Below are positions 38,705 through 57,239 of a stretch of DNA of 64,000 bases, piece by piece. Positions within the stretch are counted from its first letter, which is position 1, and every line of letters starts with the position of its first letter. A program made the position numbers and the translations under genes. The stretch is from Vitellaria paradoxa (lineage: Eukaryota > Streptophyta > Magnoliopsida > Ericales > Sapotaceae), in assembly GCA_019916065.1 (NCBI GenBank), contig CM034239.1, positions 34,310,419 through 34,374,418 on the forward strand, given 5' to 3'. Under the pieces are notes generated by a model. It saw nothing but the letters and a program-made list of their open reading frames with translations, ran no database searches and was not told the DNA's origin.

Positions 38705-39644
38705 CAGGCCTATCAATGGGACGAATCTGGATCTGCTTCGAATCAAATCTGCCAGATCTAAATCCAATTATAATGGATCCGATCTAGATCTAAAAATAAT
38801 TGAATCTGATTTGTAAGATCCAATCCAAATCCATATATTTAATGGATCCGACCTATTTTGAAAAATAATTTTTTAAGCCATCATTTCAAAATATGTTGCA
38901 TATAATATATATATATATATATATAAAATAAAAATAGAAAGTACAACAGCTAATTTTTATTTTTTTTATAATATATAGTTTATTACATAAATGTGAACAT
39001 ATAAAAATCAATAGCAGTAACTGATAGATCACCTAGTGCTAAACCTACTAAGGCAACTAATGGTACTGTTGACAAGTCTATGGAGAATTGCCAGTCCGAT
39101 GATGCAGTTGCCGTTGAAAGTACTATATGTATAAAAAATATGTAATATATAAAGATAATTATTTTTAAATTTAAATCCGTGCAACTCTATTTAATTTTAT
39201 TAATTGTTTTAATAAAATAATATAATATATATTACACGTTTTAATTGCACGACACAAATGCCCAGCCCACCATTGCTTGTAGTCAATTTTCTCGTTCCCC
39301 ATTGTCAAAGTACATAGAAATATATATAATATATTATATATATATAATAAAAATATATTTATATATATAATATTTATATATATGCGACAATTAAGGACCT
39401 GATTTTTTTAATTTATTATATTATTTTTCATTCTTAAATATTTTTAAAAATCTTATTTTTAATTTCAGATATTTAATTTTAGAAATAATGGACTGACGGA
39501 TCATCTAGATTGAGATTTACTAGTTTTTGAACCCAACAAATTTAGATCTATTGAGTCACGTATTTAATTGGACAAATCTGGTCTAAAATTATTAGATTTG
39601 GTCTGGGTCAGATCTGGACAAAATCCACTCCATTGACAGGCCTA
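38705..39644. mobile_element. hAT-type non-autonomous element
   Basis: Ends CAGGCCTATCAATGGG and, on the other strand, TAGGCCTGTCAATGGA are the inverted termini of a common plant hAT family. The RT frame continues on both sides, and flanks GAAGAAGC / GAAAGAAC look like a diverged 8-bp duplication. Sub-terminal GATCTGGAT-like repeats lie at both ends. A short reading SPSAKPTKATNGTVDKSMEN (near 39030-39090) might be a remnant of an hAT transposase N-terminus; otherwise it is non-coding. Confidence 0.8.
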
Positions 39645-48410: not shown

Positions 48411-48887
48411 AACAGTAGCAAAAGGTCCCTTATTTAGTAAACTTGATTAGCTATAACGAAAAATTATATCCAAGTCATACTTTGTAATCTTTTAAAGTTA
48501 TTAGTCATATAAAAAAAAAAGTATTGCTTTTAAGTCACATTAATGTGAAAAGTTTTGTATTTAAGTCACACTTTTGAGTGGGTCCCATGAGTTTGTTTTA
48601 AATATAATTTATAATATGACTTAAATACCCTTTCTTCTATAATTAATTGAGATGAAGTTGCCGAGAATTATGGAACCGAGAATCACGTTTTTCGTTTTTG
48701 TTTCATTCCTTATAAATCGCGTGAACAAGCATATAGTGAGATAAAAGTCTGTTAAAGGATTATATGCGAAGGAATAGATACAGATTACACGAGTTTGTGC
48801 AGTGAGATTAACGTCGGTCGAAGGAATACGTACGGATTTGGATTACGCATTTGGGTGAGTTTGTACTGTGAACGACTTCGGTCAGTC

Positions 48888-51476
48888 ATGTCTTCGAATT
48901 TGATGCTGCTATGTAAGTTTGGTACAGAGACTTTTGTAGTCAATTTGAACTGTGAAATGTTATTTTCAGATTTTGCGTTAAAGGTGTGTGAGAATTGGTC
49001 GAGTTTGAATTTGGAAAATGTGTCATTTAGTTACTCAATCCATGAACATTCTTCATGTTTTCTGAGAAACGATGTTGATTTTCAAAATATGATGATGTTG
49101 GCTCGCATGGTTGGTTTGTGTTATATATCGATTGATGTTTTTTTCGGCGGTTTGAACACAGTACCGATCCAAAACAGTACTGGTACTGTTTCCAGCAGTT
49201 CCGGTACTGTTTCTAATAGTGTGCCAATTGGTGATGCTGGTACTGGTCTAGATTCGTATGATGATTACCGTGATGTTGATGTGTATCGTAGTTCAATTTC
49301 AAGCCGTAAGGATAAACCATTGTTGTGTTCTAATTGGTCGTCATTAATATTGAGAGTGGGACAGGAATTCGTAGGAGGTGTTGATGAGTTTCGTGATGCA
49401 ATTTGTCGATATGCTACAGAGGTTGGTTTTGAATTTTTGTATGAGAGGAATAACAAGGATAGCGTCGAAGTTATTTGTGCAAAAAAGTTCGCTGAAGGGT
49501 GTCCGTGGTCAATTGTTGCATCGTTATCAAAAGTTAATCGTAATTTTTACATAAGGAAATTCAACAATGTTCACAGTTGTGGTCTGACAATTATTAGGGA
49601 TAGATCTAAGAGGATGAGCAGGAAATCTTTGGGTAAGTTGATTGTTGATCAGGTAGCATTAAAACCTTCAATGTCGTCGGTCGACGTTATTATATTTTTT
49701 AAAAACAACTATGGCATGGAAATTAGCTATGATAAGGCTTGGAGTGCTTTAGAAAAAGCTAAAGACATGATTTATGGTGAGTATGCTGATTCGTTTAATC
49801 ACTTAAGTTGTTATGTGAAGGCTGTAATGGATCTTAACCCAGGCAGTCATATTGTGTTAGATGTGGATGACGGTATAAACCGGTTTAGACGGTTGTTTGT
49901 ATCATTTGGGGCTAGTATACGTGGATTCAAATATTGCAGGCCTATCATTTTTATTGATGGTACTTTCTTGAAGTCACGTTTCAAGGGTATCCTGATGGCA
50001 GCTACTGGCAAGGATGCGAATAATGGTATGTTAATGTTCATAATATTGTGCGGTACTGTTTTTATGCAGTACTGTTTTATTATGTGGTACTGTTTTTAGT
50101 AAGATGTAGTATCGTATAAACACAGTACCAAATGCATCTAGTCATACAAAGAATGGTACTGTTTTTATGTGGTACTGTTTGTATGCGGTACTGTTTTTGT
50201 GCGGTACTGTTTTTGTGCGATACTATTTTTATGTGGTACTGTCTTATTATGTGGTACTGTTTTTAGTAAGATGTAGTATCGTATAAACACAATACCAAAT
50301 GTATCTAGCAATACAAAGAATGGTACTATTTTTGTGCGGTACTATTTTTATGTGGTACTGTTTTATGCGGTACTGTTTTATTATACGGTACTGTTTTTAA
50401 TTCGGTACTATTTTTATGTTCATATGCAGGGTTATTCCCATTGGCATTTGCTGTTGTTGATTCAGAGAATTTCGATAATTGGTCTTGGTTCCTAGGTCAT
50501 TTGCGTGAGATATTGAACCCCTCTGAAGATTTTACAATTATTTCCGATAGAAATCCTGGATTGATGGAATCTTTGCCAATTAAGTTTCCTACATGTCATC
50601 ACTTTTTCTGTCTACAGCATTTGAAGAACAATTTAAGAGATAAATTTAGTCGTGGTAACAGATCTAATGGATTCCGTGAATACATTGTGAACTTGTTTTG
50701 TCAGTGTGCTATGCTCCCACAGTTGCAGCATTTAAAGAGAAGTTAGATGTTTTGAAGAGGGAAGGGGGTGCAATTGTGGATAACTTTTTGAGTGGATTGC
50801 CTGTGCAAAATTGGACTAATGCGTATTCTTGTAGTAGAAGGTATGGTGAGATGTCTTCAAATGCCATTGAATCTTTTAACTCATGAATTCTTGATGCAAG
50901 AAATATGCCAGTGGCACATTTGGTGGACAAGATAAGGGTTAAATTAATGGAATGGTTTGCCATAAGAAAGCTCGATGCTACAAAGTGGAATGGTGTTCTA
51001 TGTCCAAGAATGGAAGAGAAGTTTAATGCACTTGTTGATGCTGGTAGAACACGGACCATCAAGATGTGTTCAGATAGTATTTATAAAGTATTTTCTAATC
51101 CTTCAACAACTGTTGATTTGGTGAATTGTACATGTTTTGTTATGGTTGGCAAATTTCTGGTTTTCCATGCTCTCATGCATTTGCTGTTATTGGGAGGATT
51201 AACAGACCTTTGAGTGAGTTTGTTGATGAGTACTTTCATGTTGATAATTACAAATTGGCATATGAAGGTGTGATTGTTCCAATACCAACAGATATAATCC
51301 AAGAGTTTGCAGACTGTAATAGTTCAATATTACCTCCAATAACACGGAGACCAGCTAGAAGGCCGAAGAAGCGTAGGATTAGATTAACTGGTGAGCTTGT
51401 ACGAAGAATTCGTTGTGGTCATTGTGGTCGCATGGGCTCTCATAATAAGAAGACTTGCAAAGAGCCGTTGAGTTGA
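48888..51476 (+). pseudogene. MuDR/VANA-type transposase, two exons, three lesions
   Basis: Exon 1 48888-50025, intron 50026-50429 (GTATGT...TGCAG), exon 2 50430-51476. The first in-frame ATG (MSSNLMLLCKFG) opens an N-terminal domain usual for plant MULE transposases. About 49350-49580 holds the MuDR DNA-binding domain (FRDAICRYATEVGFEFLYER, GCPWSIVASLS, VHSCG). The MULE catalytic domain shows FIDGTFLKSRFKG (first Asp, about 49955) and FTIISDRNPGL (second Asp, about 50535), followed by SSNAIESFNS. The C-terminus has a SWIM finger (CTC...WQISGFPCSHAFAVI) and a zinc knuckle CGHCGRMGSHNKKTC. Lesions: one-base losses near 50709 and 51139, and a TGA at 50884-50886 where Trp is usual. The protein would cut and paste the element; this copy is inactive. 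Confidence 0.92.
50041..50425. repeat. GGTACTGTTTTT repeats filling the transposase intron
   Basis: About a dozen exact GGTACTG words plus variants (GGTACTA, CAGTACTG). They sit in units such as TGTGGTACTGTTTTTAG and in a roughly 100-150 bp higher repeat (AAGATGTAGTATCGTATAAA at about 50101 and 50269). The splice sites remain intact at both edges. Confidence 0.9.
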
Positions 51477-51648
51477 ATTGTTTTTTTTTTCTCCCAAAAT
51501 TATGCTGTGAAGAAGTCTGTTATTGTTTGTTTGTTATGGTACTATTTTTGAATTAATAATGAGAATGAGTATATTTCAATCCATTTTGTGATAGTTATTT
51601 ATTCAGCGATATTCGTTTTAATGTTGGTATTGAGAATGACAGCGGTGT

Positions 51649-51670
51649 AAAACAGTACCGGTACTGTTTT
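51649..51670. repeat. perfect palindrome of two head-to-head CAGTACC words
   Basis: 22 bp centred on AACAGTACCGGTACTGTT in the spacer between the two genes. A second head-to-head pair of 18 bp lies at 51840-51857, and related pairs without perfect symmetry at about 49172 and 52545. Confidence 0.9.
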
Positions 51671-52899
51671 TATTAATACTGGTACTGTTTGTAATAGTGT
51701 TTCAATTTTAGATTTGCAGACAGTACCGTTGTCATTCTTATATTTTAAAGGACATAAAAATTTGTTGGTGACAATAGTTGTAAGTGTTTTCACAAGTAAA
51801 CTTCATTTGCAATACGTTGGTATTGAGATACTTCATACAAACAGTACCGGTACTGTTAATATTAATACCGGTACTGTTTCCAATAGAGTATCAGTCATCA
51901 CTATTTGTAGCACTATCAACATAACAAGAATCAACATCCCAAGAATTATTATACAAATCGCAAAAACCATGACTATTTATGTTAGCACAAATAGTACCAT
52001 TAACTGAACATTGACTATTTGTATTAGCATAAACTGTATCATTCAATTTACAGGAAAAAAATATTGAATATACAAGTATGTTGTTAAAAAGAAACAGAAT
52101 GTGCACTAATACTGTTTTAATTACAATCACAATGTTTGTACATCACTAATGGACAGAAATTGTGATAGCATCTTTGCTCTGTAAGCTTGTACAGCTTCTT
52201 CTGAAAGCATCGGCTCAAGTGGCTCGTCATTTGATATGCATTGCATTACGTAGTACACCATTGGCCCACAGTCAACACTGCACACAAGATGTTATAGATT
52301 GTAAGAATTTAGTTATAGGTGTTCAACAATTTGCATGAATAAAAAAGGGTGTGGCTTACGTTGTAGATCCTTATTGTGGGCAATTTGCTGCAGAAACAAT
52401 TGGGTATTCGAATTCCATGCTGGTATGTTAAATGTTTTTTGTTATTGGATCATTGAGGTATTGGTCTTTAAGTTTCAATTCCACATACTCTTTCTGATAC
52501 AATATGACAAATTTGGAGACAGTATGAGTTTTAATAAACAGCACCGGTACTGTTGTAAATAGTAGAAAAGAGTACCAATGAAATTATGTATAAAATTTAC
52601 ACACAGAATCTTACCACTTTCCTTGTATCCTCAAGATACAAATCTTTGGAATTTGCTCTACGTGGTTTCATGGAATTATAATGTGTCCATGTCCACGTGT
52701 CTCTATCCAATACCAAAAGGGTCTAATGGTTGGGATCAGCAGGAATTCTCGTTCCACTTGTATTCAAAGGGAATACAAGTAGTCTGTATGTATTAGATAG
52801 TTTCAGCTTTTGATCAATATGAGTGTCTCGAGCTGCATGATGTCTCTCAAATACCACAAATGTCTGCAACAATAAAAAATGCATGTTGTCATATACCAC

Positions 52900-53215
52900 A
52901 TGCTTGCGGTACTGTTTCCCCTAAGATGCATGCTCTCGCAAAAACAGTACCGAATGATTGTAGTATGCCAACAGTAATATGAAAATAAAAAAGAAGTCTC
53001 ATATCCATCGCATGGCTGACAGTACCATACGGATGACAGTACCGCATGTATGCGGTACTGTTTTTATGTATAAGATGAATGCTATTTGAAAAACAGTACC
53101 AAACGATAACAGTATGCAAACAGTACCAGATGAATGTTAGTTGAAAAATAGTACCAAACGATTATAGTATGCAAACAGTACCAGATGAATGCTAGTTGAA
53201 AAACAGTATCAGGGC
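52900..53215. repeat. CAGTACC-word repeats between exons of the Ulp1-type gene
   Basis: At least eight exact words in both orientations, including two near-identical units of about 52 bp (CAAACAGTACCAGATGAATG at about 53118 and 53174). Confidence 0.85.
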
Positions 53216-54009
53216 AACTGCCGCAGTGTCTGCCTTTTATTTTTTGGCAACCTTCTTTTTACCACTGTATGTGAACTCAGGATCTCTTTTCTTTTGGCGT
53301 GTTTTGTCCTTGAGCCTCTTGTACATTGAAGGTGGTTTGTTTGCAGCTGGAGTTTGTTTTTCATTGGTATCCGACTTCTTTGGCCTTCTAGTTGCTGCAT
53401 GTTTCTGCGTTACCTGGTGGACGCTAGATTCGACAAGTTCAGACCTTAATAATTCAACAACTGTATTCACATTATCAAGTTCTTCCTTTAGGTTTGTGTT
53501 TTGCAGGTTGAGATTTTCATTTTCAACGAACAACTTTGTCAGAATTTCATCTTTTTTTGCTATTTGCTTCTCCAATTCAGCAATTTTATCATCTTTTTCC
53601 TTGACCTGTTGCTCCAACTCTTCTATTTGTTCACGGTTCAAAAATGATAAAATTGAAGCAACTGGATCATTATTTTGCTGAACTGGTACTGTTTCGGCTG
53701 AGGCAGCCTGTCTTGCCTCTTGTTCTGGTTCCTCTTGTTCTGGTGCATCTTGTTCTGGGACTTTTGCTGTTATTTTGTCTGGTAAGGTGCCTTCATCAGA
53801 TTCTGGTACTGTTTCTGGAAGAATTTCAGCTATAGCAGAGGGAACAGTACCAGATTGATCGAGTTCAGGAGTACAAGACGCCTCTTGTTTTCGCTCGCTT
53901 TCGGTTGTTTTGTTCAAATGAACTATATTTGTCTTCAGTTTTTGAAGAATGTCAGAAATTACTAATTCATCATCACTGGTTTTTTCTGACGCAATGATGT
54001 ATTCATCTG

Positions 54010-54034
54010 TTTATGTCCTTTCATCATCATCATT

Positions 54035-54069
<35 letters not shown>

Positions 54070-54150
54070 TATTATCATCATATTGTTGTTGTCCATCCTC
54101 CTCTTCCTCGTCATCCTCCTCATCATCATCATCAAGATCAGGTACAATTA
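54010..54150. repeat. (CAT)n trinucleotide run in an exon
   Basis: An ATC/CAT repeat that on the minus strand encodes the Asp-rich segment of the Ulp1-type protein. The Ser- and Met-rich frames on this run are not separate genes. Confidence 0.9.
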
Positions 54151-54239
54151 CCTGATATTTTGTTCATCAATTATAGAATTCATTAGTATGTCCATGAATA
54201 CATTGTTGAATCTAGAATGATTTTATTTATCAGATGCAA

Positions 54240-54610
54240 ACAGTATCATGAAACACAAAAAGAGGTGACAAATACAAATAATAGCTGACAGTACCACACG
54301 GATGATAGTACCAAATGTATGCGGTACTGTTTTTTTTAAGGATGCATGCTCGTTCAAAAACAGTACCGAATGTATATAGCATTCAAACAGTATCATGAAA
54401 CACAACAAAACAGTACCGCATACATGAAAAAAAAAGAGAGGTCACAAATGCAAAGAATAGCTGACAGTACCACATGTCTGCGGTGCTGTTTTGTTAAGAA
54501 TGCATGCTCTTTGAAACACAGTACCTAATGCACGGATGACAGTACCACATGTATGCGGTACTGTTTTTTGTATAAGATGAATTCTATTGGAAAAATAGTA
54601 CCGAATATTC
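54240..54610. repeat. CAGTACC-word repeats in an intron of the Ulp1-type gene
   Basis: Diverged units of about 120-140 bp with the order GACAGTACCACAY, GCGGTACTGTTTT, AAGNATGCATGCTC and AACAGTACC. They are related to the tandem array at 55680-56560. Confidence 0.85.
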
Positions 54611-55679
54611 TAAGCATGCAAACATGATTTATTTTATCAGAAATAGTACCTGATTTTTATTCAACTTTTTGAGATTTATTTTTTTCAATGCATTGGACAA
54701 TGGCTTGAGATCCTAGACTAGACATCTAGGTGTTGCACTCTTCTGTACTTGTTGGACCAGAGTGGTGTGCTCACAGATCCAGTACTGCATCATTTGCTAG
54801 GGCTGATTAGTTGAATGAAGTTCATAAGACAGTACCAACATATAATATAGAATATGATATGAAAAGGTTACCGGCAACATCATGACACAGCCTGCAACAC
54901 CTTTGTTCCTAGAATCCGAGCACAAACTGTTCTCCAAGAATTCCAGTATATGCGCACTCCAGTTGTATTGGCGGATTTGATCCAAATTTTCAACCAATGT
55001 TGTGTAGTGCCATGACAATGAATGTCCTTTGTTAGGGACAAACAACATTGCCAAACAGAAGAGTGTCAAAAGTCTTGCAACATCTTCTCTGCCAATGCGT
55101 GTTTGCTCTTCAGCAGCCTGCCGCAAAGCATGAGATATGTTCTGTTTCTTAATTCGTCGCAACCCAGAGAATCTACGAGAGACGAATTCAGTGCCTGGCC
55201 TTGCGATTTTTTTGACACTGTCTATCAGTTGTTCACCATCTTCTATTGCAAACATTGTTCGCAACTCTTTCTCTCTGATGCGAAGCTTTATTCCACCTAA
55301 GTTGAAAGCTTTGGACTGTGGGTCAAATGTTTTGATGATTGTTTCCACATCAACATCGCTTTTCCTCGAGTGATCTTTGTTAATTTCACAGTTTAAAATA
55401 GTGAGGATGAGCTTCCAAAATGGAGAATGTTTAAGATATACATGGTGTGCTTTTGTCAAGTTGATGGTTTCAACTTCATTAATGACTGAGATTAGGTTCG
55501 AACGGTACTGGATGTTCACCATGTTTGATTTTGTATGAGCGTGATTGCAATACCTGTAATTCGTAACATTTGTTTTCTGTTAGAGAATGCAAATTCATCT
55601 AGATACAGTACCACTTCTACGATAGTACCGCATGTCTGACAGTACCACATCATTCAGTACTATCTCACAAAATATGCTT

Positions 55680-56560
55680 GCTTCGCAAAAACAGTACCGA
55701 ATGATTATATCATGCAAAAAGCACCATTAAACAAAGAAAAGAATCATACAACAATGAAATGACATACAGTACCGCATGTCCGACAGTACCATAGTCTGCG
55801 GTACTGTATTTTTTATGATGCATGCCCGTTCAAAAACAGTACCGCATGACTCTATAATGCAAACATCATATTTAAACACAAAAATAGCTCACATATCAAA
55901 AGAATGACCGACAGTACCGCATGTCTGACAGTACCATAGTCTGTGGTACTGTTTTTTTTAAGGATGCATGCTCGTTCAAAAACAGTAACGCATGACTCTA
56001 TCATGCAAACATCATATTTAAACACAAAAATGGCTCACATATCAAAAGAATGAGAGATAGTACCGCATGTATGACAATACCATAGTCTGCAGTACTGTTT
56101 TTTTTAAGGATGCATGCTCGTTCAAAAACAGTACCGCATGACTCTATCATGCAAACATCATATTTAAACACAAAAATGGCTCACATATCAAAAGAATGAG
56201 AGACAGTACCGCATGTATGAAAGTATCACATGTCTGCGGTACTGGTTTTTTTAAGGATGCATGCTCGTTCAAAAACAGTACCGCATGACTCTATCATGCA
56301 AACATCATATTTAAACACAAAAATGGCTCACATATCAAAAGAATGAGAGACAGTACCGCATGTATGACAGTACCATAGTCTGCGGTACTGTTTTTTTTAA
56401 GGATGCATGCTCGCATGACTCAATGATGCAAAAAACAGTACCGCATGACTCTATATAATGCAAACTTCACATTTAAACACAAAAATAGTTGCAAATATCA
56501 AAAGAATGACCGACAGTACCGCATGTATGACAGTACCACATGTCTGTTGTATTGTTTCAT
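55680..56560. repeat. 146-bp tandem array built from CAGTACC words
   Basis: The phrase GCATGCYCGTTCAAAAACAG starts at 55820, 55966, 56112 and 56259, and in shortened form at 56405, a regular 146-147 bp step. Each unit holds about four words: two CAGTACC close together, one inverted GGTACTG, and one more CAGTACC. Conservation between units is high compared with the older repeats of the element. The array lies upstream of the Ulp1-type gene and near the element's right end. Confidence 0.92.
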
Positions 56561-57239
56561 ATTAGGCTATTGTAAAAATAGCAACGATTATACGTTTTAG
56601 GAGAAACTAAATACATAATATAGTACCACAAAACCTGTTATTAGAAAGATAATCGAAAACCCTAAACAGTACCACACAATAAATATTCAAACCCTCGATA
56701 TGTGTTTTATGGAAAAACCCTAAAGAGTACCTTTAATCGAATATAATACCTGATTATTGCGAAGGACTGTAATGTGTGGATTTGCTCGGCAAAAAGTTAG
56801 GGATCAATTGAGGCTTTATTTGGAAGAAGCTTTGATTAGTTTTCAGATGATTTGTGAAGAAGTTGGAAAGTCGCGGAACGTTTCCGATAAAACAGGGAGT
56901 TTTCAAATAACAGGTTTTCTGAGTGAAATATGCGCGAGGTCCTTTTTTGTCTTTTCGTTGCAAATATGACTTATTCACAAACAATTTTTAAGGGTATGAC
57001 TTAAATCTTTAAAAGTCTATAAATTGTGACCGGCCTCCAAAAACCCCCTCTTATAATGCCCTAAAACTTTTGTCATGAGGCTACTTAAGAGATATTCATT
57101 TAATTAGTTTTTTGAGTTATGTGTTTCAAATATGTGCGTGTTTTTGTCCCCGTGTGTGTATTGTTAAAATTTTATTCGTACATGCATCTATATATGTATA
57201 TATATTTAATATATTTTTTAGTGTTTTTATTTGTTCTAT

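Follow-up and report, generated by a model that had tools for sequence, protein, structure and literature searches.

The stretch of DNA analyzed here (64,000 nucleotides of the Vitellaria paradoxa contig CM034239.1; hereafter referred to as the window) contains at positions 48457..57047 a Mutator-like element in which copies of the short word CAGTACC, or GGTACTG on the other strand, have accumulated. The element encodes a transposase on the plus strand and, on the minus strand, an accessory protein that ends in a C48 (Ulp1-type) protease domain. It begins with CGGAAAATTGTATCC and ends with CCAAAAACCCC, termini that were set by analogy with short derivatives of the same family (see below). No matching terminal inverted repeats were found when the two ends were compared, none of the 25 inverted repeats listed (of 70) links both ends, and no perfect target-site duplication surrounds the window copy. 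All comparisons were made within one genome, on which our conclusion is based, and a near-complete copy of the element (L039, the same copy as L034) is present elsewhere in it.

The transposase gene comprises two exons. Exon 1 (48888..50025; start codon assumed) encodes the Pfam domain DBD_Tnp_Mut and the beginning of the MULE domain and holds four words; a word-containing segment of it (49084..49213, element positions 627-756) is the source of the repeat units in one class of short derivatives. Exon 2 (50430..51476) encodes the remainder of the MULE domain and a SWIM domain, and its reading frame is broken in the window copy and open in L039. The intron between them (50026..50429) carries an array of words with 16-bp spacing that read GGTACTG in the sense direction. 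Domain matches of the separate open frames (PF03108, 9.9e-12; PF10551, 2.4e-10; SWIM, 2.7e-4) place the protein among the MURA/MuDR-type transposases.

The accessory gene lies on the opposite strand both in the window and in L039, where it can be modeled with seven exons, GT-AG introns and a product of 836 amino acids. The spliced L039 protein contains coiled-coil repeats and a C48 domain (PF02902) at residues 679-824 (37.7 bits; cut-off, 20.7 bits), while its N-terminal part scores 20.3 bits against the plant mobile domain (PMD), below the cut-off of 34.9 bits. A Mutator-like element with an Ulp1-tailed protein on its minus strand, as proposed in a preliminary description of the window, is borne out by the transposase domains and by this C48 match. 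In the window copy, exon 1 (54872..55522; 217 codons) encodes the N-terminal domain with its weak PMD/DUF1985 match, and part of exon 2 (53237..54151) encodes an acidic stretch, a coiled coil and a basic stretch and has in-frame stop codons at 54013 and 53239. The C48 domain is spread over an exon with the motif NH-stop-TLLVLD (52615..52863; NHWTLLVLD in L039), a further exon with two in-frame stop codons (52360..52493), and the last exon (52127..52277) with the motif VDCG, which in our reading contains the expected catalytic cysteine. For the segment of L039 that contains two short accessory exons, no match is present in the window copy. Both the histidine (HWTLLVLD) and the cysteine (VDCG) of a C48 protease appear to be present in our reading; the residues HYNS occupy the position at which Ulp1 proteases carry an aspartate.

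When five versions of the N-terminal exon were searched, PMD was matched by four (best, 2.2e-4) and DUF1985 weakly by four (best E-value, 0.0097), and the first of the five scored below both curated cut-offs. Ten matches, among 51 scored, were found with the C48 profile in the genome. An AlphaFold2 model of the 217-amino-acid exon was poor (mean pLDDT, 48.5). Comparison with solved structures gave a single chance-level match for the N-terminal exon (E-value, 0.99) and weak matches only for the C48 part, SENP proteases among them (best E-value, 0.49). Near-identical peptide units of the EKDDKIAELEKQMA type occur in the coiled coil of the L039 protein (approximately residues 378-430), and fewer of them are present in the window copy. 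A run of CAT triplets (54022-54140) gives the accessory protein of the window copy a long aspartate stretch whose length differs from that in L039.

Between positions 48458 and 57045, we counted 66 exact copies of CAGTACC/GGTACTG on both strands, spanning 49159 to 56667, where 0.55 copies would be expected from an order-1 and 1.7 from an order-2 Markov model. In the remaining 55.4 kb of the window, a count over both strands gave a single copy (at 39062). The earlier hand count of about 65 copies against about one expected was therefore correct, and so was the remark that the word is almost absent from the rest of the window. Thirty-two of the 66 words reside in two tandem-repeat stretches, one in the transposase intron (50040-50440) and the other, upstream of the accessory gene, a word-rich array that repeats every 146 bp (55590..56560) and is the source of the array in another class of short derivatives. 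The other 34 words lie outside of both stretches, where about one would be expected in 7.2 kb. Alignment of the 66 sites extended the word to an A-rich stretch followed by ACAGTACC and then A or G (65 of 66 sites); an A precedes the word in 63 of 66 sites. In the following, the fuller word is written AYAGTACCR.

The words are dense in the introns, in the spacer and in the region upstream of the accessory gene, and they are absent from the outer 300 bp on the left and the outer 255 bp on the right. Only eight of the 66 lie in predicted exons of the window copy. In L039, the exons (4,535 bp) hold nine of 101 words (2.0 per kb) and the non-exonic DNA (4,835 bp) holds 92 (19.0 per kb). The earlier statement that words occupy exons as well as introns and the spacer consequently holds, but the exonic part is minor and the bulk is non-coding. 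The few words in coding exons are translated into short peptides, GTV and ETVP among them, in the transposase (49159-49239) and in the accessory protein (53685-53845). The words follow the direction of transcription (L039; window, 48888-56790): of the 80 non-exonic words in the two gene units of L039, 63 read GGTACTG on the gene's sense strand.

Genome searches with the N-terminal accessory exon yielded 150 scored matches among 382 candidates, with identities of 82-98%. Since most of these copies are free of stop codons and many have equal scores, their pattern suggests a recent burst of amplification. We took the 30 best matches, one of which is the window itself, together with eight divergent copies (exon identity, 82-87%), so that 37 copies other than that of the window were available. 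Each of the 30 best copies has 29-48 words in 3.65 kb, while the reversed word is found once in two of them and not at all in 28. The divergent copies have 14-24 words in 4 kb, and in them the word is among the commonest 7-mers, although not always the first. In the preliminary description, an equal frequency of the word in unrelated repeats of the genome, or relatives with the same accessory protein that lack it, had been named as evidence against the proposed system. What we observed instead was that 12 sampled PMD loci of other families (47.3 kb; drawn from 168 PMD matches) contain three words in total, and that all of the 37 copies carry the word in bulk (14-48 copies per 3.65-4 kb; 101 in the 10 kb of L039).

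Throughout the genome, there are 8,986 same-strand pairs of CAGTACC whose starts are 16-18 bp apart, compared with 51 pairs of the reversed pattern. Among the pairs listed, which come from the first 4 Mb of C1, about ten clusters with element-like spacers can be recognized by eye. Relatives with a different word were not found: all those identified carry the same word, including copies whose N-terminal exon is 82% identical and locus L001 (about 70% DNA identity). The possibility that L001 is a sister family with a word of its own was rejected; it contains 10 copies of CAGTACC and looks old. Four further loci brought in by the word pattern (L003, L004, L005, and L008, with L004 and L005 overlapping) contain three to five words each and do not resemble the family.

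We aligned 30 copies and classified each variant column as rare (the variant is present in at most two copies) or shared (in at least three copies). With L034 as reference, words gave a ratio of rare to shared columns of 74:4, and the remaining non-coding sites one of 374:149 (Fisher P = 1.2e-6). The ratio at words was 51:4 (P = 5.7e-4) and 61:4 (P = 5.9e-5) with two other references, and it was 64:4 at words versus 253:87 in other non-coding DNA (P = 1.8e-4) when only C and G columns were considered; given the relatedness of the copies and the self-repetition within the arrays, these P values serve as guides only. Seven shifted controls ranged from 27:12 to 49:20 and were all less skewed than the words. 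In the direct comparison of the window copy with L039, 29 of the 30 words in non-coding DNA agree, as opposed to 1,014 of 1,590 other 7-mers. Since mutations in words do occur but are seldom shared between copies, it looks as if words may be freely lost after insertion and yet be needed for propagation. The rarity of spreading word variants is what one might see under selection acting on the propagating lineages.

Short derivatives of the element provided a second view of what is retained. A search of the genome with the left end scored 40 of 1,821 candidates. We examined eight of these (the window, six with transposase sequence and one without) and five more that were chosen because no accessory match was nearby. 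Five loci (L068, which extends L063, and L069-L072) represent derivatives of type A, which are 1.6-2.4 kb in length and carry 23-46 words. They combine element positions 1-395 and the right end with a word array like the one of 146-bp period and with fragments of the array in the transposase intron. L073, one of the five candidates chosen for the lack of an accessory match, turned out to be an autonomous-type copy and was rejected. The six derivatives of type B (23-31 words each) are made up of positions 3-189, of the right end, and of four units, each about 250 bp long, that have grown from positions 627-756 within the transposase gene. The word led us to three of them (L002, L006, and L007) and the type B end to the other three (L074-L076), which were three of 40 scored matches among 1,836 candidates.

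In the five loci checked, the longest ATG-initiated frame comprises 167 amino acids. Perfect target-site duplications of 9-11 bp flank eight of eight derivatives tested, and one of 9 bp was also present at L076; the same check gave no result at L074 and L075. A 14-bp palindrome, CAGTACCGGTACTG, occurs five to six times per copy in L074-L076. This palindrome is a common arrangement of the words in type B; a distance of 16-18 bp between word starts is a common spacing as well, and both arrangements would suit a dimer or oligomer. The words of types A and B come from different parts of the parent element, and what the two types have in common is the ends and the words.

Collectively, these observations make it probable that the family carries a VANC-type self-recognition (anti-silencing) system within a KI-MULE/VANDAL-type Mutator-like transposon. 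Such a VANC-like system had been suggested in the preliminary description. This core is supported by the density of words in non-coding DNA and tandem arrays, their presence in 37 of 37 copies, their retention in gene-less derivatives, and their lack of enrichment at the 12 unrelated PMD loci, whereas the suggested novelty of the Ulp1 pairing is not (see below). MULE transposases act on the ends of their elements. Because a transposase of this type, by itself, leaves the retention and multiplication of the words unexplained, and a word reader encoded by the family would explain them, we consider the accessory protein the likeliest reader. In the scheme that we envisage, the transposase would act on the two ends, while the VANC-like, Ulp1-tailed accessory protein is predicted to bind AYAGTACCR words (DNA of the form AACAGTACCG) in all of the non-coding DNA of the family. 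It would probably do so as a dimer or oligomer joined through its coiled coil, on words that begin 16-18 bp from each other or make up a palindrome. The bound protein would remove or block host silencing, with a loss of DNA methylation as the presumed outcome, and the C48 domain might strip SUMO from silencing factors. Autonomous copies and word-bearing derivatives alike could thereby remain active.

Several of our findings weigh against this proposal. DUF1985, the domain named for the Arabidopsis VANC proteins, matches the accessory exon only below the curated cut-off, and the DUF1985 profile found no match in the genome at an E-value of 1e-3, which is a weak negative since the controls were silent in all 14 genomes. 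About half of the words sit in arrays that may have grown by themselves. When all variants are counted, the word columns are more variable (77 of 294) than other non-coding columns (499 of 2,619; P = 0.005), and in the eight divergent copies the surplus of kept words is modest in seven and reversed in one (4 of 22 versus 31%). Finally, no sister family with another word was found, so that co-variation of word and protein was not seen.

In Spm and Ac, repeats at internal or subterminal positions are binding sites of the transposase. If the word were likewise the transposase's own binding site, the arrays would recruit this enzyme rather than an anti-silencing protein; the derivatives do retain the words along with the ends, and maize MURA itself can cause hypomethylation of derivatives (PMC10398659). 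We consider this explanation unlikely, as the outer 300 and 255 bp are devoid of words and these are instead distributed throughout the interior, filling the introns and the region upstream of the accessory gene. Alternatively, the word might have no function and have multiplied simply because tandem repeats grew. This would account for the 32 words in the two tandem stretches, for the many rare mutations in word columns, and for the one-step C>T/G>A forms that are common in old copies. There is little probability in our view, however, that such a process placed 34 words beyond the tandem stretches, amplified words of different segments in the two derivative types, and left shared variants so scarce at words (4 of 294 columns versus 149 of 2,619).

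SBP-box proteins prefer GTAC cores, and this core is contained in the word. A host factor of this kind could therefore drive expression of the element from the words that are dense in the introns and upstream of the accessory gene. The invariant part of the word amounts to at least seven bases, however, and a high density of words is also seen in the spacer and in gene-less derivatives, which makes a host reader very improbable.

The proposed self-recognition system resembles those of the Arabidopsis elements VANDAL21 and VANDAL6. These are Mutator-like, encode an accessory protein (VANC21 and VANC6, respectively) beside the transposase, and have a word of similar size piled up in non-coding tandem repeats; the word is also present in related elements that are non-coding, and the proteins have a variable region with tandem peptide repeats (PMC5735166). 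The word bound by VANC21 is YAGTATTAY and the one used by VANC6 is AGTTGTCC/AGTTGTAC, both of which differ from AYAGTACCR, and the Arabidopsis proteins are characterized in the same source by DUF1985 and DUF287, whereas the protein described here ends in a C48 domain (PMC5735166). A further difference is that 8-9% of the words are exonic here (8 of 66; 9 of 101), and the activity of the present system is predicted from its sequence. The element also resembles the KI-MULEs (Kaonashi), which are high-copy-number elements that lack terminal inverted repeats and in which the ULP domain and the transposase gene run in opposite directions (PMC2528002). MULE groups with PMD genes, some of them antisense, have been tabulated as well (PMC6446971). 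Our element shares with maize MuDR/MURB a MURA-type transposase and a second protein. In MuDR, hypomethylation is targeted to long terminal inverted repeats; our element has an internal word, and no matching terminal inverted repeats were seen in it.

The preliminary description had held that the pairing of the word with an Ulp1-tailed protein might be undescribed. This has to be corrected, as a 2026 review credits Sasaki et al. (2022) with Ulp1-bearing VANC genes that recognize their own motifs, which likewise lie in non-coding DNA (PMC13317346). The kind of system is already known, and the family described here is a further member, set apart from KI-MULEs and Ulp1-bearing VANCs by its host and apparently by its word. 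The study of Sasaki et al. (2022) reportedly also deals with the density of motifs, with helical periodicity, and with VANDALs that are non-autonomous. A limited literature search, which did not extend to supplements, found neither CAGTACC nor the family in print, and the word may nevertheless have been published already.

If our proposal holds, the family would represent a young and very abundant VANC-type system with a sharply distinct word, in which two natural minimal derivatives indicate the requirements in cis. It would be a good object for studies of transposon self-addressing, of the role of the Ulp1 tail, and of whether word and protein could serve to reduce DNA methylation at sites of choice. 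More tentatively, and with less confidence than in the proposal itself, the requirements in cis may fall into two separable parts, the ends for the transposase and the word array as an obligatory address, with the gene-less derivatives as the minimum; the Ulp1-tailed reader might bring a SUMO protease to disarm silencing, and the element might spread through circular or concatemeric intermediates that give rise to seamless arrays.

Head-to-tail arrangements of whole elements were detected through an exact junction of the right end with the left end, CCAAAAACCCCCGGAAAATT, which occurs eight times in the genome (the reversed sequence, zero times) at three places. A circular or concatemeric intermediate is a possible source of such arrays; tandem duplication by recombination may also have formed them. 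Extrachromosomal circles of Arabidopsis VANDAL21 have been reported (PMC10462705). The arrays bear on the question of how Mutator-like elements without inverted repeats move. The junctions are located at C12:10446393, 10456524, and 10466670 (L077, L079, and L080), at C9:47300623 and 47290483 (L082 and L083) and C9:47280351, and at C5:8187836 and 8197903. Their spacing of 10,067-10,146 bp appears to correspond to about one element length, and the five of the eight junctions that we inspected were seamless, with no extra base or duplication between the copies.

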